NCBI RefSeq assembly: GCF_000527035.1
Contig: NZ_AZUK01000002.1
Span: forward strand, 62,001-126,000
Reading direction: 5' to 3'
DNA: 64,000 bases
From: Tolumonas lignilytica
Lineage (GTDB): Bacteria > Pseudomonadota > Gammaproteobacteria > Enterobacterales > Aeromonadaceae
In this document: positions 10,911 through 63,075 of the stretch, one piece after another
How the letters are laid out: each line of letters begins with the position of its first letter
How positions within the stretch are numbered: the stretch's first letter is position 1
Program-made: the position numbers and the translations under genes
The notes under the pieces: generated by a model
What the model was told of the DNA's origin: nothing
Database searches by the model: none
Seen by the model: the letters and a program-made list of their open reading frames with translations, nothing else

Positions 10911-11459
10911 ATGAGAGTACTTAAATACGCCATTTTGGGGTTGTTAAACCGCCAGCCCATGACGGGCTATGACATCGGGAAAGAGTTCAATTACGAACTT
11001 GCGGAGTTCTGGCACGCGAAGCACAGTCAGATCTATACCGAATTGAAAAAGCTGCATGATGAAGGGTTAGTCACTTACGATATTGAAATCAGTGGCGACA
11101 TTCTGGAGAAGAAGCAATACACCATTACCGATGCAGGTAAGAGTGACCTGATCAAGTGGTTGCATAAAGATGAGTTAATTGAACGAACAGCCAAGGATGT
11201 TTTTCGGGTACGGATGTATTTTTCAAATAATCTGGATCTGGAAAGCTGCATCAAACTGCTGGAAAGTCAGAAGATGCAGCATAAGCGTCGGTTGAATCAA
11301 CTGAAAAAAACGTCAGAACAATATCCGGAAGTGCCCCCTCATGATAGCGACCGTTTTGGTGATTTTATCGTGCTGGAAAGTGCCATTATGCGGGAAGAGA
11401 GTATTTTGAATTGGATTGATAAATGTATTGTTTACTGCCAACAGGCGAAAAATAACTAG
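10911..11459 (+). CDS. PadR-family transcriptional regulator
   Basis: A 182-residue DNA-binding repressor. The winged helix starts with MRVLKYAILGLLNRQPMTGYDIGK and continues to FWHAKHSQIYTELKKLHDEGL, the PadR signature; the C-terminal half (from residue about 90) is the helical Vir_act_alpha_C-like dimerisation domain. ATGs at 10854 and 10902 are in frame, but 10911 begins the conserved domain exactly as in other members. Family members release DNA on binding phenolic or other small ligands. Its divergent position across a textbook PadR operator indicates that it controls both itself and the transporter-reductase operon. Confidence 0.88.
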   Translation: MRVLKYAILGLLNRQPMTGYDIGKEFNYELAEFWHAKHSQIYTELKKLHDEGLVTYDIEISGDILEKKQYTITDAGKSDLIKWLHKDELIERTAKDVFRVRMYFSNNLDLESCIKLLESQKMQHKRRLNQLKKTSEQYPEVPPHDSDRFGDFIVLESAIMREESILNWIDKCIVYCQQAKNN

Positions 11460-11530
11460 TGCACATCATCTGATGTCTTGCGTGTTTTAAACCGTTGTAA
11501 ATCTGGCAGCGGTGAGTTCATGCCATGTCC

Positions 11531-12409
11531 TTATTTAAAGGATAACGCGATTGTCAGCAGAACGGGCAATGTAAATAGGCTTAAAAAGTTCCCAAACAGA
11601 ACCATTGAGGCTACTTTAAATGGCTCTATCTCAAGCCGTTCTGCAAACAGATAATTCATGACGGCGGGCGGTAACATTGAAAATAATAACATCATCTGCA
11701 GATGCATCGTTGTGAGAGGAATGAACGTATAGATGACGCTAAATGTGATCCCCCCTGTGACTAACGACAACAGCGTGCAGGCCAGCCCAATTTTCAAACC
11801 GCTGAAACGCATATGACGCATCTGCGAACCTAACGACAGCAGCATGATCGGCACCGCAGTTTGACCGAGTAAGCTGGTGGCCTCATGAAGAGGGTGCCAG
11901 ACGCCCGTGTGGGATAAGTTGAGTGCAAGTGCCAAGGCTGCAGCAAGAAAGATGGGCATTCGGATAACTTGCTTCAACGGATTTTCTTTACTCAGAATGG
12001 CCAAACCGAGACTAACATGTGCACACGTTGAAACCACAAATAAAAGCACTGCCGATGCCATCGCTTTTTCCCCAAAGGTATAGGTAAATAAAGGGATGGC
12101 AAAATTCCCACTGTTGCGGAACATGAACGGCGGTGTCCAGGCTTTGTAATTCAATTTCAGTATCCGGCATAGCGGCCACATCAATAAACCGGGAACTAAA
12201 ATGGCCAGCAGAGCAGCACTCAATAGCGGTACTTTCGTGGTATCCAGTGGCATCGTACTGACAGAGGCAAAAACCAGCGCTGGAATAAATACATCCATAT
12301 TGAGGCGACTGATAGGGCGCAACTCAATGTTCATCCAGCGCGCAATGCAAAACCCTGCCAGAACCAGAGAAAATAGCGGGAACAGAATGCCAATCACTAA
12401 TTCAAACAT
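11531..12409 (-). CDS. AEC-family (auxin efflux carrier-like) transporter
   Basis: A 292-residue inner-membrane protein with about ten hydrophobic segments. It starts with FELVIGILFPLFSLVLAGFC and has the helix-breaking MFRNSGNFAIPL segment (about residue 96) and the internal repeat SLGSQMRHMRF, as in bacterial AEC permeases for malate, malonate or amino acids. The start overlaps the aminotransferase gene by 8 bp, so the two are coupled and the permease may export or import the aminotransferase substrate (inference). Confidence 0.8.
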   Translation of the reverse strand: MFELVIGILFPLFSLVLAGFCIARWMNIELRPISRLNMDVFIPALVFASVSTMPLDTTKVPLLSAALLAILVPGLLMWPLCRILKLNYKAWTPPFMFRNSGNFAIPLFTYTFGEKAMASAVLLFVVSTCAHVSLGLAILSKENPLKQVIRMPIFLAAALALALNLSHTGVWHPLHEATSLLGQTAVPIMLLSLGSQMRHMRFSGLKIGLACTLLSLVTGGITFSVIYTFIPLTTMHLQMMLLFSMLPPAVMNYLFAERLEIEPFKVASMVLFGNFLSLFTLPVLLTIALSFK

Positions 12410-13586
12410 AAGATGCTCTGTTTTTTAAGGCGGCCTGCAAACGTTCCAGCGCAATGGACAGGCTCTGGTGATTTGTTCCGTAACAGACACGCAAATGTCC
12501 ACGGCCTGCGGTACCGAATGCTTCTCCTGGCGCAACACCGACTTTTGAATGTTCAATCATGTCCAGAATAAACGGCTGACTGTTATCGGGTAATCCATCT
12601 ACTTTCAGGAACGCATAAAAAGTGGCCGGCATTTCATATAGAGTGACGCCGGGTAGATTACCTAATGCTTGTTGTACCATTGAACGGGAATGACGGAAGC
12701 GATCGACGGTCTGTTGTAAGAAATCTTCGCCTTTTTCAATGGCTGCGACGCCTGCCGCTTGAACAAAAGCGGGGGCACAGGAGACATTAAATTCAATCAG
12801 TTTCGTAATGGTTGGACGAAGCAGTTTCGGCAATGTGAGCCATCCTAAACGCCATCCGGTCATGCACCAGGCTTTAGAAAAGCTATTACACACGATCACA
12901 TGATCGCGCTCATCCAAATACTGACAGAATGAAGGTGCGGAAGTTCCTTCATACACATGGCGGTTATAGACCTCATCCGAAATGATCCATAATCCGGTTT
13001 GACGAGAAAAATCAATTATCGCTTTGACTTGTTTCTCGTTTGCCATCCAACCGGTGGGATTGGCCGGTGAATTAATAATTAACGCTCTGGCGCCTTTCAG
13101 CACAGTCAAAAAGGCGTCCATATCCAGATCAAACTGTCCATCCTGTTGCGTCAGTGGAAATTCAATGACCTCCGCTCCCAGCAAACGAGGGATCGCCATG
13201 AGCGTTGGAAATGCAGGCGTGATAACCACAACTTTATCTCCGGGCTTCAACACCGTTTGAGCGGCGAGCATCACCGCATTGGTTCCAGAGAGGGTTACGA
13301 CTATGTTTTCTTCATCAAACGGACGACCAAAAAGATTTGTTTGGTAGTACGCCAGGCTTTGCCGTAATTGCGGGATCCCATTGTTTGGCGTGTACATGGT
13401 TTGCCCCTGATTCAAGCTTTCGATAGCGGCCTGTCTGATAAAATCAGGAGTGCTAATATCGGATTCCCCAAACCATAGCGGGATCACTCCGGGCTGCGAC
13501 ATTCCAAAATTAGCAATTACCCGGATCGATGACTCGTTTAATTTTGCCGCGATTGGGCTGATATCATTCTGGATTGATGGATGCAT
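12402..13586 (-). CDS. class I/II pyridoxal-phosphate-dependent aminotransferase
   Basis: A 394-residue cytoplasmic enzyme. It shows the substrate-side GESDISTPDFI, the PLP-phosphate region TLSGTNAVMLAAQ, SPANPTGWM (Asn and Pro of the cofactor site), SDEVYNRHVYEG (Asp and Tyr), and the Schiff-base lysine in NSFSKAWCMTGWRLGW (about residue 242). The C-terminal arginine that binds the substrate carboxylate lies in HLRVCYG. Substrate is not deducible. It is divergent from an Lrp-family gene 139 bp away, which probably regulates it, and is coupled to an AEC permease. Confidence 0.85.
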   Translation of the reverse strand: MHPSIQNDISPIAAKLNESSIRVIANFGMSQPGVIPLWFGESDISTPDFIRQAAIESLNQGQTMYTPNNGIPQLRQSLAYYQTNLFGRPFDEENIVVTLSGTNAVMLAAQTVLKPGDKVVVITPAFPTLMAIPRLLGAEVIEFPLTQQDGQFDLDMDAFLTVLKGARALIINSPANPTGWMANEKQVKAIIDFSRQTGLWIISDEVYNRHVYEGTSAPSFCQYLDERDHVIVCNSFSKAWCMTGWRLGWLTLPKLLRPTITKLIEFNVSCAPAFVQAAGVAAIEKGEDFLQQTVDRFRHSRSMVQQALGNLPGVTLYEMPATFYAFLKVDGLPDNSQPFILDMIEHSKVGVAPGEAFGTAGRGHLRVCYGTNHQSLSIALERLQAALKNRASYV

Positions 13587-14264: not shown

Positions 14265-15164
14265 ATGATTAAAGAAAATATAAATGACTTACTCTCTTTT
14301 CTTGAGGTTGCTGGTGAGCGGAATTTCACCAAAGCAGCAGTAAAACTGGGTGTTTCACAGTCCGCATTAAGTCATACAATTAAGGCTCTAGAGGCACGGC
14401 TAGGCGTCCGACTATTGAACCGAACCACCCGGAGTGTGTCATTGACGGAGGCGGGGGAGCGGCTTTTACTCTCTTTTTCCCCTCGGATCAGTGAAATGGA
14501 AGAGGAACTGGTTGCGATCCGTGAACAGCAAACCAGACCCAGTGGCAAAATCAGGATCTCCACGCCGGAATATGCCGCCCATCATGTGATCTGGCCGTTT
14601 CTGGAGACATTTCTTCCTAAATATCCAGATATTCATTTTGAGGTGATTATCGAAAACAGTTTCACGGATATTGTGGCAGAGCGTTTTGACGCGGGCGTGC
14701 GTTTAGGGGAACAAGTTGCAAAAGATATGATAGCAACACGGATCTCTTCTGATTTAAGAATGCAGGTTGTCGGTGCGCCTTCCTATTTTGAGAAACATTC
14801 CAACCCCGTCACACCGAATGACTTGCAACAACACCAATGTATCAATTTAAAGCCGTCACTGGCTCGAAGTGTGTATGCCTGGGAGTTTGCAAAAGATGAA
14901 CACATCATCAGTGTCAAAGTGGAAGGTCAGCTTATATTCAATACCTCCTTACAAATTAAAAATGCAGCATTAGCCGGGTTTGGGCTTGGATATTTGCCTT
15001 ATGACATGGTGAAATCAGAAATTGAATCGGGTTTACTTGTGAATGTTTTGGATGCTTGGTGTCCGTCATTCAACGGGTTTCATCTGTATTATCCAAGCCG
15101 AAAACAACACACCAAGGCCTTCAAAATTTTTCTGGAAGAACTAAAAGCCGCTCGTGCCAGTTAG
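14265..15164 (+). CDS. LysR-family transcriptional regulator
   Basis: About 299 residues. The N-terminal winged helix is typical: LLSFLEVAGERNFTKAA, SQSALSHTIKALEARLG and LLNRTTRSVSLTEAG. A periplasmic-binding-protein-like effector domain occupies about residues 90-295. A TTG start at 14253 is possible, but the ATG at 14265 places the helix-turn-helix at the usual distance from the N-terminus. Sequence features match the DNA-binding regulators often placed next to quinol/aldehyde detoxification genes. The cupin gene 178 bp downstream is the best candidate partner. Confidence 0.87.
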   Translation: MIKENINDLLSFLEVAGERNFTKAAVKLGVSQSALSHTIKALEARLGVRLLNRTTRSVSLTEAGERLLLSFSPRISEMEEELVAIREQQTRPSGKIRISTPEYAAHHVIWPFLETFLPKYPDIHFEVIIENSFTDIVAERFDAGVRLGEQVAKDMIATRISSDLRMQVVGAPSYFEKHSNPVTPNDLQQHQCINLKPSLARSVYAWEFAKDEHIISVKVEGQLIFNTSLQIKNAALAGFGLGYLPYDMVKSEIESGLLVNVLDAWCPSFNGFHLYYPSRKQHTKAFKIFLEELKAARAS

Positions 15165-15342
15165 AACGTACAACATTTTTTGTTTGAGTTAGTGATAAGG
15201 CTGTAAATATATAATGTTGAGTTGTCATTAAAATTATGAATTTTTTTCATGAATGTAATGAAACATCGAATCATTATTTGATAATAGGAAAAGATTAAGA
15301 TGAGCCTGAAATTTTTAATCAATCATTTGAATTGGAAAAATC

Positions 15343-15741
15343 ATGGCGCTAACAAAAGTACAAGAGAGACAATCTTTTAAAGGTCCAGAAAATTGGTTCA
15401 CGGGGCATGTGCGTGTCGAAATGTTGTTTACACCACAAGCAAAAGCAAGAACCAGTGCGGGTTCCGTGACGTTTGAGCCAGAAGCTCGAACTGCATGGCA
15501 TTCTCATCCAATCGGCCAATCACTGATTGTAACCGCAGGCGTTGGTTACGTTCAGTTCTGGGGTGAAGAGCGACAAGAGATCGTTTCCGGCGATGTAGTC
15601 TGGATACCTGCAGGTGTTAAACACTGGCATGGTGCTTCTGAAAAAATGGCCATGACACATATTGCTGTGCAAGAAGAAGAGAATGGCAGTGCCGCGGATT
15701 GGATGGAGTTAGTTTCCGACGCGCAGTATGCTGGAATATAG
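15343..15741 (+). CDS. single-domain cupin, (R)-mandelonitrile-lyase-like
   Basis: A 132-residue beta-barrel protein. Metal ligands are visible in WHSHPIGQSLIV (two His and a Gln) and in PAGVKHWHGA. The start pattern QSFKGPENWFTGHVRVE and the end MTHIAVQE-DWMELVSDAQY match the cupin hydroxynitrile lyases known from Granulicella and similar bacterial cupins, as I recall them. Those enzymes bind Mn or another divalent metal, but most relatives have unknown natural substrates and sit next to LysR regulators, as here. Fold is certain, reaction is not. Confidence 0.75.
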   Translation: MALTKVQERQSFKGPENWFTGHVRVEMLFTPQAKARTSAGSVTFEPEARTAWHSHPIGQSLIVTAGVGYVQFWGEERQEIVSGDVVWIPAGVKHWHGASEKMAMTHIAVQEEENGSAADWMELVSDAQYAGI

Positions 15742-15777
15742 TCACTGCGCTGCGCTTTATACAAATATTTTAAATAA

Positions 15778-15802
15778 AAAGGTCAGTATCACACTGACCT
15801 TT
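15778..15802. terminator. bidirectional terminator between cupin and lipoprotein genes
   Basis: AAAGGTCAGT (15778-15787) pairs with ACTGACCTTT (15793-15802) around a 5-nt loop. The A-rich left flank gives a T-run on the minus strand, so it should end the minus-strand transcript best, and it also follows the plus-strand cupin gene by 36 bp. Confidence 0.7.
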
Positions 15803-15809
15803 ATGAATA

Positions 15810-16241
15810 TCATTTTTTCACTTGGAATGAGTCCATTATTTTCAATAATACTGCAATTTTTTTCTGGCATTCCGCCTGTATTGGATTATCAGCACGAATT
15901 GCTTCTAAAGCACCATCAATAGCTTTATCAATTTTATGCCAATCACTAGCAGCTCTTGGTTTTAGTCCTGCCTCAGCAGAATCCCATGCTAATTCCAAAT
16001 CTTTAATTCGAGTTTTTGCGCCCGATAAATCATTTTTATCAACTAAAACCACCACATCAGCTACGATTGTTCTGAATTGAGATAAATCACCTAATTTTGA
16101 AACTGTATTTTGGGGGCTGGAGTCGGAGGATGTTGATCCTTGATTTACACTTGTTGTATCTGGTTTAGAACAGCCAACGGTAAATCCTAATAAGATGGTT
16201 GAGACTATTATTGGAATACATAAAAAGCGAGTATTTTTCAT
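15810..16241 (-). CDS. small putative lipoprotein of unknown function
   Basis: A 143-residue protein with a basic N-terminus, a hydrophobic stretch and a Cys at about residue 24 (GFTVGCSKP), consistent with a signal peptidase II lipobox, although the residue at -3 is not the usual Leu. A serine-rich linker follows, then a helical domain of about 100 residues ([27 protein letters not shown], later [18 protein letters not shown]). It may sit in the periplasm on a membrane. The gene lies 30 bp behind the membrane-protein gene upstream and probably shares its transcript. No function recognised. Confidence 0.7.
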
Positions 16242-16271
16242 TGTTAACTATCTCCATCATATATAAACGAA

Positions 16272-17060
16272 TTATTCAGAAAATTGTGGGTTGATTACTT
16301 TTGTTGAAATAGTGAATTGTGCAGTCCCGACTAAAATTATTATAACTGATAAAAATAATACACTCGTCCACATAGCGCCCATGCCGAGTCCACCATATGT
16401 TTTAGATTGAGTTAATAAATCGCCTAATGCAGCACCAAAGGGACGAGTTAAGATATATCCTATCCAGAATGTTAATACGGGATTACCACCTAAACGGAAT
16501 AACAGATATGAAGCTAAAATCATCGCACCAAAAGCAATAGCACCAATACTGAATCCAAGTGATAATGCTTCGGTTGCTAAATCACCAGCAGCGGTTCCTA
16601 AAGCAAAGGTGCATAATATGGCGGACCAATAAAATAATTCACGGCGAGATGTCGTTATTTCATGAATCGATAATGTTCGTTCTATGGTATACCAAACCAT
16701 GAATATTATTGCCAATCCGATAGCAAATATAGTTGTACTTATATAAAGACTGACACCTAATTTGTCAGTTAATAAATCAGTGATTTGGGTACCGACAATA
16801 CTGACCAGAACGACAGTGAGCCAATAAATCCAAGGTGTATAAGTTTTTGATACAAGTTGTTTTCCGAGCGCGATGGTCAAAAATATAGCCATTATCGCAC
16901 TGGTTAATCCTTGTCCTAACCCCGCATTTACAGCCAGATAATCCGCACCGGTTTCACCAACCGTCGTCGACAGTATTTTGATAACCCAAAATGTAAGTGT
17001 CACTGCAGGCACTTTATTGAGTATTTCTCTGATACCAGAATTTGTTTGGTTTTCCATCAT
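16272..17060 (-). CDS. COG4705-type polytopic membrane protein
   Basis: A 262-residue inner-membrane protein with about eight hydrophobic segments. Two halves look like an internal repeat: TFWVIKILSTTVGETGADYL near the start and TFWIGYILTRPFGAALGDLL near residue 200, each pairing an aromatic-rich helix with a Gly-Asp-Leu motif. This repeat pattern is that of an uncharacterised membrane-anchored family. A second in-frame ATG follows directly. No function is known to me; genes upstream and downstream on the same strand encode an ArnT-like transferase and a small lipoprotein. Confidence 0.7.
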   Translation of the reverse strand: MMENQTNSGIREILNKVPAVTLTFWVIKILSTTVGETGADYLAVNAGLGQGLTSAIMAIFLTIALGKQLVSKTYTPWIYWLTVVLVSIVGTQITDLLTDKLGVSLYISTTIFAIGLAIIFMVWYTIERTLSIHEITTSRRELFYWSAILCTFALGTAAGDLATEALSLGFSIGAIAFGAMILASYLLFRLGGNPVLTFWIGYILTRPFGAALGDLLTQSKTYGGLGMGAMWTSVLFLSVIIILVGTAQFTISTKVINPQFSE

Positions 17061-17167
17061 TCAAGCCCATTAGTAATAAAAGGTAAAACTGATATTAAGT
17101 AACAATACTTAGTACAAACATAGAAAAAGAATAATGCTCTCTAATTTGAGAACATTAATGATTGATA

Positions 17168-18883
17168 TTATTTAATAGAGTTTATTTTTGGCGTGTAGTG
17201 ATAAATTTTTATATCACTGCTGTGCAAGCAATCTGGTTTGTCTATGACTGAATCGGTGCTAAATAGATACCAACTTTCATTGTGTCTATTTCCTAATAAT
17301 ATTCCTTTATTTATATCAAAGCATTTTTTAAGGTTAGATTTAGGGCCTAATACCCATCGATTAGGTTGTGATTTTATCCATACAGATGCGGCATTAACCT
17401 GAGAGCTTTTATCCTGATGATATGAAAAATGATATATATCTCTATTTGCGAATAACAAGAATTGTTCTCGCATGTTGGTTAATAAAATTTCTTGGTTTGG
17501 CTGAGTGATGCTTTCAGCCTTTAACATAATTCCTTGCGGGGTTCTGAGATCATTTATTAACGGATAAGCCCATAGACCATAATGCAACCAGAATAGAGTA
17601 AGTACGGAAAGTAAAGCCGTTATTCGTTGCTTACGTAATATCAAATTTACCAAAATTCCAGAGATACCTAACGATAAGGCTAGCGGTACAGGCGATGAAA
17701 TCTCTGCCAGATGACTATTCAAATTAGGTTTAATTAAAAGAACAATTCCTGTAGCAATGAAAACAATGGGGACTAACCAGCTAAGACCTTTCATCAATCG
17801 AATGGGGATCTTGCGATTGATGATATTTGGTAAAAATAATGCACTTAACATAGCAAATGGGATTGTTGCTGGTGTCATGTATACGCCACGTTTACCTGGT
17901 GATATTGAAAAAAATACAATGATTAAAATGAGGTAGGTAACCAGAATAATTACAGGAATATTTCGGTTTCTGATTTCATTTTTACACTGTAGAACTATCC
18001 ACGGTAATAGCAATGACCAGGGTAGCCAAAATGGCGGAATGACATTCAGAAGGTAGTACCAGAAGGGCTTTATGTGTTGCCATGAGTTTGCATAGCGAGT
18101 GACAGTTTGGTGAAATAAAATATTATCCCGATATGCTGTATATATCGGATCTGCGTGCATTTTAACCGCAACCAGCATGGGAATAAGCCATAATCCACAA
18201 GCCATTAACATAATAAATGGGCCTGAAAAAGCTTTTAACCAATCGGATTTAGTGGCTGCTTTTATTTTCTGGAAATGTGTATAAATTGCGGGAATCAATA
18301 TAAATAGTGCTAAAATACCAACCCCTTTTGTAATAATTCCAAGACCAGCAGCGAACCACCCTAAATAATACCAACGCCATCCTCCTGATGTTAAAAGAAA
18401 TCGCAAAAACCCATAGCAACCTAATGTAACGAAGAACGTTACTAATTCATCAATCTGTGCTTGCTTTCCTTGAACAGTAAACTGAACGGTAAACAATAAT
18501 AATAAACCGGCTCTGAAAGCAACGGAATTGCCCCATAGGCGACGTGACATGTCGTAAACAAGCGTGATACAACCTAAACCTGCAACTAGTGATGGAATTA
18601 AGAACGCAATGCGCATTGAATGGGTGAGCCAATAAATTGCTGCAATACCCCACATAAACATTGGCGGTTTATCGGGATATATTTCTCCTCCCCGAAAAGG
18701 GAATAACCATTGGCCAGTATCAACCATTTGTTTTGCGATTAATGCAAATCGAGGTTCGTCTGCTGGCCATGGATCACGTAGGCCCAACCCTGCGCCAAGT
18801 AACAACAAAGCTACGCCGAGAAGAAACAACAAATTTAGGCGGTCGTTATCAAAACCATGTAGTGTAAAACGATCTGAGATCAT
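17168..18883 (-). CDS. ArnT-like integral-membrane glycosyltransferase (GT-C fold)
   Basis: A 571-residue protein with an N-terminal membrane helix, then the key first periplasmic loop DPWPADEPRFALIAKQMV, where the Asp-Glu pair forms the catalytic and metal site of GT-C enzymes. IYPDKPPMFMWGIAAIYWL follows, then about ten further membrane helices and a soluble C-terminal domain after residue 430. It belongs to the dolichyl-phosphate-mannose/ArnT superfamily, which transfers a sugar from undecaprenyl phosphate onto lipid A or another envelope acceptor. The substrate is not clear, and no arnBCADEF genes are nearby. Confidence 0.8.
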   Translation of the reverse strand: MISDRFTLHGFDNDRLNLLFLLGVALLLLGAGLGLRDPWPADEPRFALIAKQMVDTGQWLFPFRGGEIYPDKPPMFMWGIAAIYWLTHSMRIAFLIPSLVAGLGCITLVYDMSRRLWGNSVAFRAGLLLLFTVQFTVQGKQAQIDELVTFFVTLGCYGFLRFLLTSGGWRWYYLGWFAAGLGIITKGVGILALFILIPAIYTHFQKIKAATKSDWLKAFSGPFIMLMACGLWLIPMLVAVKMHADPIYTAYRDNILFHQTVTRYANSWQHIKPFWYYLLNVIPPFWLPWSLLLPWIVLQCKNEIRNRNIPVIILVTYLILIIVFFSISPGKRGVYMTPATIPFAMLSALFLPNIINRKIPIRLMKGLSWLVPIVFIATGIVLLIKPNLNSHLAEISSPVPLALSLGISGILVNLILRKQRITALLSVLTLFWLHYGLWAYPLINDLRTPQGIMLKAESITQPNQEILLTNMREQFLLFANRDIYHFSYHQDKSSQVNAASVWIKSQPNRWVLGPKSNLKKCFDINKGILLGNRHNESWYLFSTDSVIDKPDCLHSSDIKIYHYTPKINSIK

Positions 18884-54212: not shown

Positions 54213-54334
54213 CTGAAATCACCTTTCCGCAGTAGTATCACGATTAAACAATCGTATTTTCTTGATAGGATACAATCAAATCTGACCCAAAGTGTGTAAA
54301 AATGTGCTCAATCGACTCGTGGAGCAGGCGGCAC

Positions 54335-55009
54335 ATGGGATTAGTGGATAAAACAAAACTGACAGAAACCGACATCATTACGAAATTTATTCTTCCTGCG
54401 GTGAAGAATGTTGGTTGGGATGATCTGATTCAAATCCGTCAGGAGGTAAAACTTCGTGATGGGAAGGTGATTGTCCGAGGGCAGGCCGCCGCACGTAAAA
54501 AGGTCAAATCTGCTGATATTGTTTTATACCATAAACCAAATATGCCACTGGCTGTCATTGAAGCCAAAGCGAACAAACATGAATTCGGAAAGGGAATGCA
54601 ACAGGCGTTGGATTATGCTGGTTTGCTGGAGGTTCCTTTTGTTTTTGCTTCAAATGGTGAAGATTTCATTTTCCATGACAAAACCAACCCCACTCAGTTA
54701 GAACAAGAATTACAGCTTGCTGACTTTCCAACGCCTAAAGCTCTTTGGGATAAATACTGCACTTGGAAAGGCTATACCACCGAACAGCTCCCTATTATTA
54801 CTCAAGATTACTACGATGACGGGAGTGGAAAATCTCCGCGTTATTATCAACTTCAGGCAATCAATAAAACGATTGGTTATACCTGCCTCGCTGCGAAAGC
54901 ATTATTATTTTTGAAATCGCCTTGCCAGCAGAAAATATTAAACTGTAGCTTTGCGAGCATGTTTGTGGGAGCTGTATCAATGCGTTCCTTAGTCCATTGC
55001 AGTAATTGA
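54335..55009 (+). pseudogene. truncated type I restriction enzyme subunit HsdR (N-terminal fragment)
   Basis: The start [20 protein letters not shown] and the following [20 protein letters not shown], then [24 protein letters not shown], which holds the nuclease motif E-x-K, are typical of type I HsdR. The match stops after [13 protein letters not shown] (about 54873), where the Walker A motif should follow. What follows to 55009 is unrelated. Neither HsdM nor HsdS is near. The rest of the subunit was lost by insertion or deletion. Confidence 0.8.
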
Positions 55010-55077
55010 TTCAAAAAATCAGAGTTAGCCTCTATCGAGATCTATTGGTTGTGCAAATTTTATATGAGGAATATTTC

Positions 55078-55887
55078 GTGTCTGAAGAATTATTACCTGT
55101 CGAAGATAAAAAGTTAAAAAAATATTATGTATATGAATTGGTCGATCCTATGACAAATGAGGTCTTCTATGTTGGGAAAGGTCAAGAGTATAGAGTTGAA
55201 CAACATGAGATCGAAGCTAAAAATGAAGAGGCTAACTCTAAAAAAATAAAAAAAATTCACGACATAACACAGCAGGGATACGAAGTAATAAAAAGAATAA
55301 TCGGTCGCTTTGATGAAGAGAACGAAGCTTTTTCTGTCGAAGCAACACTAATTCATTGGGTTTATGGTAAAAATAATCTGACAAACATTGCAGGTGGTCA
55401 TGGCTGTGATTCGATTAGACCGTATGGTGATAATTCAATTATTGAAGGGATTGATATACCGCCAAGAGAGCGATCAAATAACGGAGAATACTCAAACGTT
55501 GAAAAAAATAAAATAATTGAAAATGATATTGAAAATTTTATGGTTAACGTGAAAAATGAGTTGGAAAGAAAACTGAATCTGGAATTTTCAGAAATTAGAA
55601 TTGATCAATCAAGATTTACTGAAATCTATCACGAAATAAATGGGCTGAAAATTACTGTATTCTCTAATAACTCAAAAACAAGAAAGTTAAAGTTAGAAGT
55701 GCGACCATTAACATCAAAAAAAGAGCATGTTAAAAATGTAATAAATTTGTGTGAAAAGCAGTCAGTTATTAAGATAAAAAATGCAGGTAAATATGCTTTA
55801 ATCCCATCGCAAAAGCCAACGCAAGATATCGATGATATATGCCTATACTTTAATGTGGTTAAAGAGATAATTATCAACATATCTTAG
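55078..55887 (+). CDS. GIY-YIG-like nuclease domain protein
   Basis: About 269 residues when started at GTG 55078, with GAGGA eight bases upstream; a longer frame from 55006 would run through the remnant DNA. The start YYVYELVDPMTNEVFYVGKG followed by an Arg and a His (EYRVEQHE) resembles the eukaryotic LEM-3/Ankle1 type of GIY-YIG nuclease domain: YVYxL, FYVGKG, R and H. EATLIHWVYGKNNLTNIAGG carries the late Glu and Asn. The second half is unrelated and basic. Likely a DNA-cutting enzyme (inference). Confidence 0.65.
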   Translation: MSEELLPVEDKKLKKYYVYELVDPMTNEVFYVGKGQEYRVEQHEIEAKNEEANSKKIKKIHDITQQGYEVIKRIIGRFDEENEAFSVEATLIHWVYGKNNLTNIAGGHGCDSIRPYGDNSIIEGIDIPPRERSNNGEYSNVEKNKIIENDIENFMVNVKNELERKLNLEFSEIRIDQSRFTEIYHEINGLKITVFSNNSKTRKLKLEVRPLTSKKEHVKNVINLCEKQSVIKIKNAGKYALIPSQKPTQDIDDICLYFNVVKEIIINIS

Positions 55888-56956: not shown

Positions 56957-57853
56957 TTAACTAAGTACCTTCCACCCAGGGGCTAAGATGGCATGTTCGA
57001 CACCATATAATGCGTGGTGATTTCTAAGTGCCAATAGTTTCCCTGTAAACTTGGATTCAGGTTCTGATGAACAATCCACCTGCCATAAATTCAATAGATA
57101 TCCTGCGAATGGTGCTCGTAGCTCGATTTTCAAAACACCATCAACCATGCCGTAATCTTTCATGATTGTCTGAGGAAACTCAATCGAAGGGTGGGGGATC
57201 AATTCTAGTTCGACAATCCTCTGCCATTGCTTGTCTTCAAGAATGCATTCATGAGCAAATACCTCCGTTGTTTCCAAAATTGCAGAATCAACACGAGTGA
57301 TCACGAAATCTCTGAAACCATTTCTTTTGCGATCAAAGGCCCGGAAATGCCAACGGATCCCGTTATCGACAATCGTATGTGGTACTACAACCCTTTCAGA
57401 AGGACCATTTTCGATAGATGTGTATGTGATTTTGATAGGTCGTTTCTGATAAATGGCTTCAGAAATTGTCGCGACTAGCGACAAATCAGGCTTGTTCAAT
57501 CGAAATGGAGAAACACAGGAAATAACAGTTTTAATATTCCCCATAAAACCATCACCGAATCCCTGACTTAATGTGGAAAGCGTTCTATTCACATCATAAT
57601 CAAACAGGGGTTTGAAAGATGAACTCTTCACATGCATTCGACGTTTTTCATCATATACGGCGTTGTCAGGTGCAAATTCCCGATATCTTGCAAAATCCTG
57701 AGTGGCGACTGAAGGTGCGACACCAAATCGTTCTGTCACCGAGTTTCGGTTGGCTTCACCCTTAAAATACAAAGTGAAATCAATATGAGCTAGTCGTTCT
57801 TGTTGTACCTGGCTCAGTTCAGAGAGCTTAGGTTTGATTTTTTCTACAGTCAT
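56957..57853 (-). CDS. WYL-domain transcriptional regulator of BrxR/CapW type
   Basis: About 298 residues. Residues 1-95 form an N-terminal winged helix (RLAHIDFTLYFKGEANRNSVTERFGVAPSVATQDFARYRE, split here as FTLYFKGEANRN and VATQDFARYRE), and the rest is a WYL ligand-binding domain with RPIKITYTSIENGPSERVVV and WHFRAFDRKRNGFRDFVITR. The order and linker match the BrxR/CapW regulators that repress BREX and CBASS operons, as I recall them. It is divergent from the Argonaute gene, 190 bp between starts. A GTG start at 57871 is possible but lacks a ribosome site. Confidence 0.8.
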   Translation of the reverse strand: MTVEKIKPKLSELSQVQQERLAHIDFTLYFKGEANRNSVTERFGVAPSVATQDFARYREFAPDNAVYDEKRRMHVKSSSFKPLFDYDVNRTLSTLSQGFGDGFMGNIKTVISCVSPFRLNKPDLSLVATISEAIYQKRPIKITYTSIENGPSERVVVPHTIVDNGIRWHFRAFDRKRNGFRDFVITRVDSAILETTEVFAHECILEDKQWQRIVELELIPHPSIEFPQTIMKDYGMVDGVLKIELRAPFAGYLLNLWQVDCSSEPESKFTGKLLALRNHHALYGVEHAILAPGWKVLS

Positions 57854-57869
57854 AGTGCCATTTAGTTTC

Positions 57870-57923
57870 ACTGTTTATATGTACAGTATCATTTATACCT
57901 AATAAAAAAAAGTAGGTAACCTA
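57870..57923. promoter_or_regulatory. candidate operators between regulator and Argonaute
   Basis: ACTGT at 57870-57874 pairs in inverted order with ACAGT at 57883-57887 (8-bp gap), and TAGGTAACCTA at 57913-57923 is a palindrome whose half TACCTA also occurs at 57896-57901. They lie in the divergent promoter region of the regulator and the Argonaute, where a WYL regulator would bind. Confidence 0.4.
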
Positions 57924-57978
57924 TTACAAATCGAGAAAATATGATCTACCATCAAGTCTCAATTGCTTATCCATGAAA

Positions 57979-58025
57979 AAAGTAATGTTACTTGGGAGCG
58001 CATCTGAACCAGAGGACATTACTTT
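57979..58025 (+). promoter_or_regulatory. 10-bp inverted repeat in the Argonaute leader
   Basis: AAAGTAATGT (57979-57988) is repeated inverted as ACATTACTTT (58016-58025), 27 bases apart, ending just before the ribosome site AAGGA of the Argonaute gene (58031). It may be an operator or an RNA hairpin that limits translation. The perfect match and position make chance less likely. Confidence 0.5.
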
Positions 58026-58042
58026 CCCAGAAGGAAATGTGA

Positions 58043-60280
58043 ATGTCGATGGAGTTAGGGCTCAATGCGTTACAACTGAGTAAAAATATCAACGGAACCA
58101 CGGTTCATGCTTACAAAGTCATCTATGACAAAAAGGATGAAAATAAGAATCCAACTCAGTTGATCCGCTCTGTTGCTTCAGCGATTGGAAAGCCCAACCA
58201 TTTTCCGCTAGTGACAAATTTAGGGCATGACTTAATTGTTACTCTAGCACCATTAGACGATTTAATTGTGGATACACCATGGCTTGTTGCGTGCTTAGAA
58301 CTCCATGGGCAGCTTGAATTAGATGCTAATATCCCACTTCATAATGGTGCCTTGCAGCGATTGGTCAATCAAGACCTAGCCAAAGCCGCATATCAGTTAG
58401 CATTTAACAAAAGTGGAACTATTGAATATCTGAACCAGGCAGGTACAGTCGCAATAAGGGAAAAGTCACCATCTGAACGAGTCCGCTTCAAAGCTACATT
58501 TCTTGATGTCTTTAAAACGATTGAATTAGATCCCCAAGTATTACCAGATGGTACAGTAATTATAGGGCTCCAATTAGCACATGGATTGATCGCTAAATCT
58601 GGTATATCACTACAATGGGTGATTGATCATCGTCCCAAATGGTTAGAGGTGATAAAAAGAGTTAGGCATAGATATCAAAGTGCAGATCGTGGAAAGATTG
58701 TCGCTGAATTTGATTCAGTACAGACCGAGCTTAATGGTTCGAGCATCTTGCCCTCCTTAGGCAAATCTTTATATGAATACCATGCAACGAAAGGCGAAAT
58801 AAAAGGAGATCTGCTTGAAGAGACCAAGACCTCCACAGTGGTCAAGGTGAAATATGGTAGCAAGAATGTATGTGACCATGCCGCTTGTCTGCTTGAGCCG
58901 GTATTCGATTTTGAGAGCTTGAGCAATATCGACCCAGATACATTAAACCGATTGGCCAGAGATTTAAAATGGCCCATGGAGGAGCGGATCCGTGAAGGCT
59001 TTAAACTGATCGACGGCTTAGCACTTCCGAACTTTTCATCCCGTCTTGTAAAACTAGAACCTGATCTATTACAACAGTTAAGGCTGAATATCAGCCACAT
59101 TCAATTGCAATTCAATCGTGGGCAGTCGAATAGCGAAAAAGATGTACTGCGATTTGGCGCTTATGCCCAGATGACTAGAAACATGATTGTTCCTGTCGTT
59201 GTCGGTGAAACTGCTGATATGGGTTTGGCTCAGAAAGTCTTCAATGATGTTTTCAATACCTTATCCCGAATTAATCCGTCACAACTGCCTAATATTGCAC
59301 CAAGTTACCCAATGCAAATCTGTGATGCTGATGAATTAGAAATGCGCTTACAGAAAAAATGTCCTGATAATGCAATTTTATTGATCGGATTAGCTCCAGG
59401 AGCTGATAAACGTGCCATACGTGATGTGGCATTTAGTAACAAACTTGCCACCCAATTTTTCAAATTAGACCATAAGCCTAACGTCTATCAGCAAAGCTCA
59501 TATGCTGGGAATATTGCAGCCGGTCTATTTAGTAAGGGGGGAGGGCAAATTTGTAAAATCAGTAATATGCCGGGTAATAGTGAGTTATTTATCGGTTTAG
59601 ATATGGCCGGTACAACAGTCAGAACACCGGGTTTTGCCTTCTTATTTACTCATGAGGGTACACAACTTGGCTGGCAATTAGCTGATAAGCAAATCGGTGA
59701 AAAAATGAGTGATGCAGAGTTGACTGATTTACTGACCCAAGCCGCAAAAGCTTATAAAAAAGAGATGGGTGAACAACCTAAACGAATGACATTACATCGG
59801 GATGGCAAGTTTTACGAGACTCTAGAGGTCGTTGAATCATTTGAATTGGCAACCGGTATTAAAGTTGACGTATTAGAAGTGTTGAAAAGCGGAGCTCCCG
59901 CTATTTATCGACGCACTTCGGTTTATGATCCTGACAAGAAAATTATCCAAAAATGTTTCACCAACCCGGAAGCAGGTGATGCATTTGTCATCAATGAAAA
60001 TGAAATTATCATTTCCACTTATAGCGGTGCTGAGCTAGGGAAAATGGACTCATTGATGAGTGTACGTTCGTTACGTTTGCGGAAACGTCATGGTGATACC
60101 GACCTAAAAACACTCGCAGAACAGGTTTTATATTTAAGCCGTATACACGGAGCATCATTGTACCGACATCCACGTTTACCGGTTACAACACATCATGCAG
60201 ATCGATTCAGTAAATTAAGAAAAGAAGTCCGGGTTGAGTCACTGGCCCAAATGGATCGGCTCTGTCCGGTGTATTTATAA
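58043..60280 (+). CDS. prokaryotic Argonaute with complete PIWI tetrad
   Basis: A 745-residue long-type Argonaute that likely uses small nucleic-acid guides to cut target DNA or RNA. MID: CPDNAILLIGLAPGADKRAIRD near residue 440. PIWI: D520 in LFIGLDMAGTTV, E553 in KQIGEKMSD, D587 in LHRDGKFYET and D720 in THHADRFSK. Spacings (33, 67, 200) resemble those of TtAgo (34, 68, 182), so the DEDD tetrad looks intact and the protein should be active. The N-terminal parts correspond to N and PAZ regions but are too diverged for motifs to be seen. Ribosome site AAGGAAA fits the ATG 58043. The stop is followed after 21 bp by the next gene. Confidence 0.85.
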   Translation: MSMELGLNALQLSKNINGTTVHAYKVIYDKKDENKNPTQLIRSVASAIGKPNHFPLVTNLGHDLIVTLAPLDDLIVDTPWLVACLELHGQLELDANIPLHNGALQRLVNQDLAKAAYQLAFNKSGTIEYLNQAGTVAIREKSPSERVRFKATFLDVFKTIELDPQVLPDGTVIIGLQLAHGLIAKSGISLQWVIDHRPKWLEVIKRVRHRYQSADRGKIVAEFDSVQTELNGSSILPSLGKSLYEYHATKGEIKGDLLEETKTSTVVKVKYGSKNVCDHAACLLEPVFDFESLSNIDPDTLNRLARDLKWPMEERIREGFKLIDGLALPNFSSRLVKLEPDLLQQLRLNISHIQLQFNRGQSNSEKDVLRFGAYAQMTRNMIVPVVVGETADMGLAQKVFNDVFNTLSRINPSQLPNIAPSYPMQICDADELEMRLQKKCPDNAILLIGLAPGADKRAIRDVAFSNKLATQFFKLDHKPNVYQQSSYAGNIAAGLFSKGGGQICKISNMPGNSELFIGLDMAGTTVRTPGFAFLFTHEGTQLGWQLADKQIGEKMSDAELTDLLTQAAKAYKKEMGEQPKRMTLHRDGKFYETLEVVESFELATGIKVDVLEVLKSGAPAIYRRTSVYDPDKKIIQKCFTNPEAGDAFVINENEIIISTYSGAELGKMDSLMSVRSLRLRKRHGDTDLKTLAEQVLYLSRIHGASLYRHPRLPVTTHHADRFSKLRKEVRVESLAQMDRLCPVYL

Positions 60281-60301
60281 ATTGGCAAGGATCACAAAAT
60301 T

Positions 60302-60847
60302 ATGACAAACGAAGAATTGATGATGTCTCTGCGGCATCATGAGTTTATTGGTCCATGCGCCATTCAATATAGATTAAAATGTGGTTGGACAAAGGCGAAA
60401 TATAAGTTAGATGAGTTAATAACTTTAGGATATGTTGATGAACAACAAGAGACAGTTTACCGGCATAAAAATCTAAGCTATGAACCTTTGCCAAAAAAAA
60501 CAATATATTCACCATACATTAGAATTTGGAAGGAGCCTATTGAGAAAAAATATTTTAACAAAAGTTTAAACATTAAGGATAAGATTCATTCCATATTGGG
60601 AAAAAACCAAAATCATAAAAAAATTGCAATTTTAACAGGGGATGCTAAGGAAAGACTTATCCTGAAAAAATGTAGTATTGCCAGAATTCAAAAGGTGGTG
60701 ATTAAAACACCATTACGACTTAAACTCCAAAATTTTAGAGTGATCATTATAACCGACAAGCTAATGGAAAAGCATTTTGGCTTTTGGGGGTTTAATCGAG
60801 TAAGAAAATTAAACTATGTTTCTAAGGTTTATTTGTTGTGTGCTTGA
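60302..60847 (+). CDS. small winged-helix-like protein in the Argonaute operon
   Basis: A 181-residue basic protein. Residues 1-50 (MTNEELMMSLRHHEFIGPCA, then IQYRLKCGWTKAKYKLDELI) have the helix-turn-helix pattern of FtsK-gamma-like winged helices, where a small domain binds DNA. The rest is basic, with KIAILTGDAKERLI and FRVIIITDKLMEKHFG. It starts 21 bp behind the Argonaute stop with an AAGGATC ribosome site, so it is in the same operon. Function unknown; DNA or RNA binding is inferred. Confidence 0.6.
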   Translation: MTNEELMMSLRHHEFIGPCAIQYRLKCGWTKAKYKLDELITLGYVDEQQETVYRHKNLSYEPLPKKTIYSPYIRIWKEPIEKKYFNKSLNIKDKIHSILGKNQNHKKIAILTGDAKERLILKKCSIARIQKVVIKTPLRLKLQNFRVIIITDKLMEKHFGFWGFNRVRKLNYVSKVYLLCA

Positions 60848-60859
60848 TGGGGTAGTAAG

Positions 60860-61600
60860 ATGGAATGTACAAATTCAACAATCAAGTTCTGTTTTAATAA
60901 AGAAAAGTATGGCGATATGGATTTTGTGGCTATAATAACTAAAAGTATAATGCCAGTTTTAGAATATTTTGATGATTATAAATTTGAAGAGACCAACAAT
61001 GTTGTTTCAAATTGTTTTGGTTTTTCTGATTATGATAGTTATTTAAATTCAGAAGATAAAAATAAACACCTGCACGAATCGATTTTACATGGCTTTTGCG
61101 ATAACCTTAAAAGTTATTTAAAAAAATCAGGTCGATTAGATCTTGAGAAGATACCTGATATTGCGATTGAAGAAAGCGTTCGCGGTTCATTTTTTGGAAT
61201 GTTACCGATTTATTTCAACTTGTTAGATATCTTTGAGTGTGGTAGGGAATTATTCGATCTTGAAAGTAATTTTCATCTCAAGAGAGATTGTATTATTAGA
61301 AAAATAATAGTTCCGGTAATTAAAGAACTTCAGATTAGTGATGCGCATTCAATCAGTGATGTTGTGAAGTTTTGTGAATTAGATTTCGTGTATGATTTAT
61401 ATTTGAAATTGAATAAATGGAAATACATGCGCAATTTGAAAATAATGAAAAGCTTTATGCGGAATTATGACAGTAAAACAGGAACATTTTCTGAGAATGC
61501 CAATGTTTGGTGGCATATCATTTTGCGTGAATATGGCTCATATGAATCCGTATTTGATAATTTTTTCTCTGGTGGGAATGTTAATGATTTTTTCAAATGA
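60860..61600 (+). CDS. unknown protein in the Argonaute operon
   Basis: A 246-residue acidic, helical protein, 12 bp behind the previous stop. There are no membrane segments. The sequence has DNLKSYLKKSGRLDLEKIPD, then LPIYFNLLDIFECGRELFDL and RKIIVPVIKELQISDAHSI, with aromatic clusters FSENANVWWHIILREYGSYE near the end. No family recognised. Tight spacing supports a shared transcript and role. Confidence 0.55.
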   Translation: MECTNSTIKFCFNKEKYGDMDFVAIITKSIMPVLEYFDDYKFEETNNVVSNCFGFSDYDSYLNSEDKNKHLHESILHGFCDNLKSYLKKSGRLDLEKIPDIAIEESVRGSFFGMLPIYFNLLDIFECGRELFDLESNFHLKRDCIIRKIIVPVIKELQISDAHSISDVVKFCELDFVYDLYLKLNKWKYMRNLKIMKSFMRNYDSKTGTFSENANVWWHIILREYGSYESVFDNFFSGGNVNDFFK

Positions 61601-61706
61601 TTTTTTTCTGGTGGTTAAAGTGGATATACACATTGATAATACATCAATGTGTATATTGTGAGTTCTTATACTTCAATAAATCTAAACATTTTTGTTAAGG
61701 ATATAT

Positions 61707-62432
61707 ATGTTTAAAATTCCAGAATTGCCATCTCAATTGCAAATGAATCAAGATAAGATACAAAAAATAGTACCAGAAAATCAATCATTTATGTATGAGA
61801 TCTCCCGGTGGGGTGAGCCTAGCCTGAATATGTCATCTCGTGATGAATGTAAAAAGATATTAGCAAAGTTCTCTGGAAAAATCAGTCGTGGCGATGTTAT
61901 ATCGATGGCTCAAAATTTCTTTAAAAAACAAACTGATGAAATTCTTGCGAGTGAACTGTTTTTTTCTGTTATGTTGTGGGGATGGAGTGATCAACCTATT
62001 GGAGTTCCACGTACAGATAATATATATTTGAGCAATTCTTCTGAACACATTGCTAAATCAATCATTCAAGCAGCTAAACACATCCAAATTGGAGATATAA
62101 TTTCTGCATATTCTACGTGGGATGTTAAATATTGCAAAATGGCTTTCATGACGAAAATGTTTTATTTTCTTGGTGTTGCCTCCGAGCAAAAGCCACTGCC
62201 ATTAATACTGGATGCAAATGTTGTGTCCAAGCTAGATCGATTGGGGCTAGACGCAACCAACTTCGCTTCTTGGACACTAGATAATAAATCAAACAAATAT
62301 GGTGTAACCGCTGATACTAAGCAAAGTCCAAGTAAATATAATAATTATGTAAATATGATGAACGTGTGGGCAGACCAATTAAGTTGCAGGCCAGATCAGT
62401 TAGAGATGTTTATATTTACTACTAATTTTTAA
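61707..62432 (+). CDS. OGG-fold DNA-glycosylase-like protein
   Basis: About 241 residues when started at the ATG at 61707 with AAGG before it. SRGDVISMAQNFFKKQ, then VMLWGWSDQPIGVPRTDNIY and AFMTKMFYFLGVASEQKPLPLILDA are shared with the OGG-fold domain family, a version of the 8-oxoguanine glycosylase fold found beside defence genes, as I recall it. A lysine (TKMFYF) and an Asp (LILDAN) mark the catalytic pair candidates. The role may be to remove or recognise altered bases (inference). Continues the operon. Confidence 0.6.
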   Translation: MFKIPELPSQLQMNQDKIQKIVPENQSFMYEISRWGEPSLNMSSRDECKKILAKFSGKISRGDVISMAQNFFKKQTDEILASELFFSVMLWGWSDQPIGVPRTDNIYLSNSSEHIAKSIIQAAKHIQIGDIISAYSTWDVKYCKMAFMTKMFYFLGVASEQKPLPLILDANVVSKLDRLGLDATNFASWTLDNKSNKYGVTADTKQSPSKYNNYVNMMNVWADQLSCRPDQLEMFIFTTNF

Positions 62433-62433
62433 T

Positions 62434-63075
62434 GTGATAGATGAACTAATCATGGATATAAACTATCAAGATATACTCTTTAGTCTACAGAGTAGATTGT
62501 CTGCAATCATTAAACATTCGAATCAACAGCAGGATTTTTATAGGAAATACAAAGATAATTTATGTGTTTATAACATTGCGGATTTGGTCGCCCACCCTCA
62601 CAAAAAACATTTATTTCCATTTAGAATAATTGGTTATGGTTCATTTAGCGTTGTTCTTAAACACCCTAAAATTTCTAATGTTGTTTTTAAGATCCATAGT
62701 GAAGATGGATTTAATGTGTATGCTGAGTATTGCAAAAATCTGGTAAAACCATTTAGCTTAATACATCCTGTAATTTATGAAACAGTGTTTGCTTGCAATA
62801 AATATGGTGAGCTATTTGATGAGGCTGTATATATAACAGTAATGGAGGAATTGTTTGAGTTGAGGCGGCCTATATGTAAAACAGGAGAGCTAATAAGCTA
62901 TATTCAAGAAATAAGAGATCTTTGCAAATACACAACTGAACATCACAAATTAATATCTGTTGATGTAAAAAATAACTTAATGCAGCGTATAGATGGTCAA
63001 ATAGTTTGCCCTGACCCTGTTGCTGCAATATTTCCAAATATAGATAGCGATCCTGATTCGGTTGATATTTATTAA
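62434..63075 (+). CDS. protein-kinase-like protein
   Basis: About 213 residues from GTG 62434, one base behind the previous stop; an ATG at 62452 would give 207 residues. FRIIGYGSFSVVLKHPKISN resembles a glycine-rich loop, VVFKI the lysine of strand 3, YITVMEELFELRRP the hinge, and SVDVKNNLMQ with CPDPVAA the catalytic loop and a DPV that replaces DFG. Short for a full kinase and with a changed metal motif, so it may be a degenerate kinase. Last clear gene of the operon. Confidence 0.55.
   Translation: MIDELIMDINYQDILFSLQSRLSAIIKHSNQQQDFYRKYKDNLCVYNIADLVAHPHKKHLFPFRIIGYGSFSVVLKHPKISNVVFKIHSEDGFNVYAEYCKNLVKPFSLIHPVIYETVFACNKYGELFDEAVYITVMEELFELRRPICKTGELISYIQEIRDLCKYTTEHHKLISVDVKNNLMQRIDGQIVCPDPVAAIFPNIDSDPDSVDIY

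Follow-up and report, generated by a model that had tools for sequence, protein, structure and literature searches.

A BrxR-type regulator gene divergent from a catalytically intact Argonaute gene in Tolumonas lignilytica: a predicted two-gene module

Defense operons of bacteria can be placed under repressors that carry a WYL domain. For example, CapW represses the operon of a cyclic-oligonucleotide-based antiphage signaling system (CBASS; PMC9122588), and BrxR of Escherichia fergusonii (EfBrxR) belongs to the bacteriophage exclusion (BREX) system of pEFER (PMC9122601). For prokaryotic Argonautes (pAgos), the closest described case is found in Vibrio cholerae. A WYL gene, VC1772, is located upstream of ddmDE there, and a review predicts that it regulates the two genes, of which DdmE is an inactive long pAgo that works with the helicase-nuclease DdmD (PMC12409362). 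The locus described below lies in a 64-kb stretch of the 3.63-Mb genome of Tolumonas lignilytica (the window, positions 62001-126000 of contig C2), in which a BrxR-family gene is divergent from the gene for an Argonaute with an intact catalytic tetrad. What is new here is that a predicted operator resembling R-BOX1, the experimentally defined operator of BrxR, is present between the BrxR gene and the intact Argonaute gene. To our knowledge, the switching on of pAgos in the cell is largely open, and a recognizable operator beside an intact Argonaute offers a direct and cheap test of it.

The likeness of this locus to ddmDE is that a WYL regulator stands beside a long pAgo gene, with regulation in V. 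cholerae being a prediction only (PMC12409362). The difference lies in the effector: DdmE is catalytically inactive, whereas the tetrad in the window is intact. In addition, Pfam and phrog profiles found no DdmD-like helicase or nuclease among the four genes downstream of the Argonaute gene. The assignment of the locus to DdmDE was rejected on both counts. The preliminary description of this DNA knew of no WYL regulator of this class controlling an Argonaute with such a set of partners, a statement to be qualified by VC1772 as a likely regulator. Among the matches listed, VC1772-ddmDE is the only direct precedent for a WYL-Argonaute pair, most subscription literature lying outside the scope of the search. 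BrxR and argonaute both occur in PMC8565348, in unrelated places, and the available parts of PMC4012209 and PMC7641849 hold no WYL-Argonaute pair. In the main texts, argonaute and pAgo are absent from Picton et al. (PMC9122601), and argonaute is absent from Blankenchip et al. (PMC9122588) and Luyten et al. (PMC9122589). Ryazansky et al. (PMC6299218) report HsdS among the genes of pAgo operons, and the term WYL is absent from the main text; operons were defined in that survey as same-strand genes, so a divergent regulator falls outside it.

The regulator gene is on the minus strand. Its open reading frame (ORF) covers 56957-57871, reaching up to a GTG, and the alignment with EfBrxR makes the ATG at 57853 the more likely start, so that the gene would span 56957-57853. 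The BrxR/CapW-type label given to its product earlier is borne out. The protein matches the WYL family PF13280 (E=6.4e-13), and its best solved relative is EfBrxR itself (PDB 7qfz, E=5.9e-114), with residues 7-292 of that structure aligned to residues 15-299 of the window protein across the winged helix-turn-helix, the WYL domain, and the C-terminal domain. The two proteins are 58% identical, and the recognition stretch APSVATQDFARY is the same in both. Residue R17 of EfBrxR contacts DNA and is essential for repression (PMC9122601); the motif ERLAHID, whose R is this residue, is unchanged in the window protein. Further structural matches are CapW of Stenotrophomonas maltophilia (7tb6, E=8.9e-32) and another BrxR (7t8k, E=1.2e-26). 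CapW thus shares its family with the window regulator, but it is far less similar to it than EfBrxR and is tied to another effector. EfBrxR differs in its arrangement, being upstream of and codirectional with the BREX genes, whereas the window gene is divergent from the Argonaute gene.

The R-BOX1 operator of BrxR occupies positions 12,820-12,846 of pEFER (Picton et al., PMC9122601). In the window, the stretch at 57894-57920 (no strand), between the two genes, agrees with this 27-mer at 20 of 27 positions and shares its 11-5-11 register. No other place in the 64 kb matches R-BOX1 as well (the runner-up reaches 18/27), and in 5000 dinucleotide shuffles of the intergenic sequence, a score of 20/27 was never attained. 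The predicted operator contains the core ACCTA-N11-TAGGT at 57897-57917. A search for this core covered 399,300 bases, the window included and some of them overlapping, with ten window-overlapping loci left out; the upstream regions compared were those of 14 further BrxR relatives from the host family (L034-L047), weaker matches having no loci. Five distinct sites were found, upstream of the BrxR genes of the window, pEFER, L034, L035, and L036 (the last three from the same genus), and none elsewhere in the scanned loci. The core stands upstream of all five BrxR genes with the recognition-helix pattern AP-xxx-T-x-DF and upstream of none of the 14 with another helix (the 11 relatives L037-L047 and the Argonaute-linked L010-L012). 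Of these observations, the more independent ones are the L035 site and the absences. According to Luyten et al. (PMC9122589), EfBrxR and Acinetobacter BrxR differ in their targets and contact residues, which fits with helix and site going together. The score of the full 27-mer is not significant in L034-L036, where 27, 21, and 10 of 200 shuffles equal it, and the core alone is shared.

Across the host genome, the bare core occurs at 8 places, compared to 5 in a reversed control; seven of the eight belong to a single repeat whose spacer differs. A version of the core rich in A occurs once at up to two mismatches, compared to 3 control matches. The sequence ACCTATCCTACACAGGTAGGT is present in seven copies on contig C1 (L051-L054 among them); its resemblance to the operator core is limited to the spacing, and it probably belongs to a dispersed repeat.

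The Argonaute gene (58043-60280, plus strand) codes for a long-A-type pAgo with PAZ, MID, and Piwi domains. A profile check recovered the Piwi domain above the Pfam cut-off (E=2.5e-10, 40.6 bits, cut-off 28.9), as well as PAZ_3 (E=1.1e-9, 39.2 bits, cut-off 27), and the PADLOC pAgo model PDLC02390 matched with 1149 bits over model positions 2-719 of 719. A profile built from three members of the family matches the structures of CbAgo, CpAgo, and TtAgo. The full tetrad D520/E553/D587/D720, which had been read from the letters alone, aligns with D478/E512/D546/D660 of TtAgo (reference sequence taken from pTT27), and these four residues are kept in 13/13 family members compared (window included, three partial). 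In the MID domain, K456, R460, Q471, and K498 align with the 5′-phosphate pocket residues R418, K422, Q433, and K457 of TtAgo. The guide pocket is basic, and the changes from TtAgo at two of the four positions, R418/K422 versus K456/R460, are conservative. Because the tetrad and the MID pocket residues are intact, the window Argonaute is expected to be an active pAgo that uses 5′-phosphate guides, and we infer that DNA is both its guide and its target. It has the PAZ domain, the MID pocket, and the DEDD tetrad in common with the long-A pAgos CbAgo and TtAgo. It differs from them in belonging to a separate proteobacterial family (PDLC02390) and in the BrxR switch, which accompanies two sub-lineages of that family. 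The family is rare, with matches in 3/369 genomes of the class, one of them weak and partial, and in 1/247 genomes of the order, the host's own. A single scan turned up 11 loci in the named genome collection (L010-L020), the plasmid collection gave one full-length match (L006), and two patterns for the window Argonaute found no relatives in viral contigs.

The window and these 12 loci make up the 13 Argonaute loci that were compared. The contigs of L016, L018, and L019 end less than 0.25 kb upstream of the Argonaute gene, and L014 has only 0.87 kb upstream. Ten loci have 0.8 kb or more upstream of the Argonaute gene, and in four of them a BrxR-like gene is divergent from it: the window, Marinobacter persicus (L010), Marinospirillum minutulum (L011), and Nitrincola tapanii (L012). 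A profile search of all ORFs of at least 70 aa found no further BrxR-like genes in the Argonaute loci. The three regulators of L010-L012 are 64-73% alike mutually and about 28% alike to the window protein. On an Argonaute tree of 11 rows (L018 and L019 were dropped as short, and L016 was scored as lacking the WYL gene although its upstream region is missing), the WYL label needs two changes, both of which are forced by the starred branches. Since the window regulator is nearer to EfBrxR than to those of L010-L012, two separate pairings are favored: members of one Argonaute clade have probably been joined head to head with a BrxR gene twice, each time from a different BrxR lineage, and this speaks for function. 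In L010-L012, the region between the WYL and Argonaute genes carries a conserved block, GAGTCTG-n-TTGAAAATC...CAGATTGTA...TTCAGTATCGCA, with small differences in L010. This block may be the operator used by the second BrxR lineage; the best symmetric 27-mers there have no more than 7 or 8 of 11 pairs.

Four things can be read directly from sequence: the families to which the proteins belong, the intact residues for catalysis and guide binding, the resemblance of the predicted operator to R-BOX1, and the recurrence of the pairing. They suggest a two-gene module, and with moderate confidence we favor the reading that a divergent BrxR repressor holds down a pAgo that is catalytically active and probably guided by DNA. 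In the resting cell, a BrxR dimer on the ACCTA-N11-TAGGT operator would keep its own gene low and, through repression of the Argonaute promoter, presumably the Argonaute gene as well. Single-stranded DNA (ssDNA) or another WYL ligand, coming from invading replicons or from products of restriction or repair, would release the repressor. Activation by ssDNA is reported for CapW (PMC13373217), and we infer that ssDNA is the ligand of the window BrxR too. The Argonaute would then be made when its guide material, short 5′-phosphorylated DNA from the same breaks, is present. Sister regulators precede other weapons. A same-genus BrxR (L048, genome G375) is followed by hsdM, hsdS, a fic gene, and hsdR, all in one direction, and L049 (genome G370) has the same ORF pattern; the BrxR of pEFER precedes the BREX operon, and in the window, the Argonaute gene follows on the opposite strand. 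With one BrxR-operator unit placed before BREX, type I restriction, or Argonaute, regulators and weapons would be exchanged as modules.

Several observations weigh against the two-gene module. Of the six proposed ligand-patch residues of EfBrxR, three (S143, K173, and R184) are the same in the window protein, and H174 is replaced by R. The dyad symmetry of the window operator failed as a stand-alone test, its 7/11 symmetric pairs (compared to 10/11 in R-BOX1 of pEFER) being equalled in 1673/2000 shuffles, and the helix pattern and the core were defined only after the first sites had been seen. From the operator core, it is 44 bp to the ATG of the WYL gene and 126 bp to that of the Argonaute gene; because the WYL start is nearer, autoregulation of the WYL gene alone is possible. 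A promoter scan of the gap found none on either strand; by eye, the WYL gene has a weak -35/-10 pair (8/12 consensus bases, under the scan threshold) that the core overlaps. The WYL gene is lacking in 6 of the 10 Argonaute loci, including that of the nearest relative, Methylotuvimicrobium buryatense (L015), and the clustering of the WYL label on the tree is not significant (56/500 shuffles are as low). The pattern could also stem from a single origin, with the WYL gene evolving fast and being lost three times. Finally, BrxR-type genes occur in 39/75 genomes of the host family, its own included, and chance neighbors in a defense island are conceivable.

The Argonaute gene is followed by four more genes on the plus strand. 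The 181-aa ORFan (60302-60847) had been called winged-helix-like, a label that did not hold up, as its best matches are all sub-threshold: FtsK_gamma (E=0.066, 13.4 bits, cut-off 30.6), the better-scoring coiled-coil family Vps52_CC (E=0.016), and phrog_10070 (E=0.013). The 246-aa ORFan (60860-61600) has no Pfam match and no recognizable family, in keeping with its earlier description as unknown. The third product, a protein of 241 aa (61707-62432; ORF from the TTG at 61692), is a clear member of the OGG-fold family PF21790, well above the curated cut-off (E=2.7e-29, 102.8 bits, cut-off 27), as had been proposed, and it is a putative DNA glycosylase; no solved relatives were found by sequence. 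The fourth, a small protein-kinase-like protein of 213 aa (62434-63075), begins 1 bp after the OGG-like gene. Its kinase label comes from residues 6-145, which match phrog_15752, a phage protein kinase (E=4.1e-9), and by motifs seen by eye (a G-loop at 67, K86, and D177-x-K-N-N), but Pfam gave no match. We take phrog_15752 to be the T7 0.7 type of kinase. Single-sequence structure models were unusable for the 246-aa ORFan and the kinase-like protein, with predicted local distance difference test (pLDDT) values of 38 and 31. All four ORFs are longer than any stop-free run that arose when the stretch was base-shuffled 500 times (maximum 156 codons) and show codon bias in their own frame, and therefore they look like real genes. 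The places and strands of the six ORFs agree with the preliminary description, and so do its gaps of 21, 12, 106, and 1 bp, provided that the OGG-like gene begins at the ATG at 61707, which has AAGGA 5 nt upstream, and not at the TTG.

One could consider all six genes to be one defense system under the WYL switch, for example with abasic sites made by the glycosylase feeding the guides and the kinase gating the effector. This is suggested by the strand that the Argonaute gene and the four downstream genes share, by the gap lengths, and by a simple scan in which the gaps between these genes held no promoter-like site on the plus strand. We consider it improbable, however. None of the four genes is present at the 12 other Argonaute loci (BLAST, E 0.01; each with at least 2 kb downstream), so the set of partners proposed earlier is not supported: among the other loci, the Argonaute gene is in three again beside a WYL gene and in none beside these four, whose base composition also differs from that of the WYL-Argonaute pair. 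Three of the four have no relatives in the sampled genomes beyond the host's own, which alone was matched by the kinase-like gene (1/274 genomes of the class), the 246-aa ORFan (1/185 genomes), and the 181-aa ORFan (1/128 genomes of the order). The OGG family was matched in 3/274 genomes of the class and 2/299 of the phylum, the matches besides its own (two and one, respectively) being under the cut-off. Searches of plasmids and viral contigs gave no relatives for any of the four, and a phage search gave none for the two tried. The GC contents overall and at third codon positions (GC3) match between the WYL gene (.418/.362) and the Argonaute gene (.416/.358), but they are lower in the four downstream genes (.295-.353/.244-.304); the two genes to the left of the pair have GC contents of.311 (GIY-YIG) and.317 (Sel1). 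Moreover, the gap of 106 bp comes just before the glycosylase gene. The four genes may ride on the Argonaute transcript but look like local cargo. The 181-aa ORFan is perhaps co-transcribed with the Argonaute gene, given the 21-bp gap, without being a conserved partner, and the OGG-like and kinase-like genes are perhaps a second, separate pair. The fullest version would be an inducible DNA-interference operon in which ssDNA from breaks in an invader both lifts BrxR and loads the Argonaute, while abasic sites from the glycosylase, once nicked, supply additional guides and the kinase gates this step. If this were true, the BrxR switch would be a universal plug that fits in front of BREX, type I restriction, or Argonaute alike, but it is likewise a long shot.

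The two-gene module must also be set against the customs of defense islands, where BrxR might control only itself, or a restriction or BREX operon since lost, with the Argonaute having landed alongside. The restriction operon behind the same-genus sister BrxR, an HsdR fragment (54302-55009) 2 kb away, the frequency of BrxR genes in the host family, and an operator closer to the WYL start are all in line with such an origin. We nevertheless find it rather unlikely, given that three other species show the same head-to-head arrangement, there with another BrxR lineage, that the WYL and Argonaute genes match in GC, and that the Argonaute is intact. Slightly more plausible, still doubtful, and compatible with the two-gene module is the possibility that the Argonaute is primarily a companion of restriction or BREX, to which the WYL gene is an optional add-on. 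Eight Argonaute loci extend at least 8 kb upstream, and seven of them (L006, L010, L011, L013, L015, L017, and L020, the window having only a fragment) carry restriction or BREX genes no more than 10 kb upstream, a count that is based on ORFs picked by size; defense islands cluster such genes anyway, and HsdS in pAgo operons had already been noted (PMC6299218). In Aromatoleum anaerobium (L020, 9-16013), the Argonaute ORF, of 458 aa and without the N-terminal part, even forms part of a BREX operon, with an AAA ATPase gene on one side and pglZ and brxL on the other.

The surroundings of the locus hold further defense genes. The HsdR fragment is the N-terminal part of an EcoAI-type protein and is followed by a GIY-YIG gene (55006-55887) that matches the defense model PD-T4-3; the two are what is left of a restriction locus, some 3 kb away from the Argonaute gene. 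Just to the right of the window (L002), there is a relaxase gene (11215-13090), with a small gene before it, and a HerA-like/SIR2-like pair (14979-17947), so that the Argonaute gene sits beside a mobilization module with further probable defense cargo. Elsewhere, the genes that come after the Argonaute gene are an unknown gene and a GmrSD gene in L013 and a methyltransferase-HNH gene in L012. In L015 (9992-12919), which has the Argonaute nearest to that of the window, a gene of the endonuclease/exonuclease/phosphatase family follows at 21 bp and is another candidate partner.

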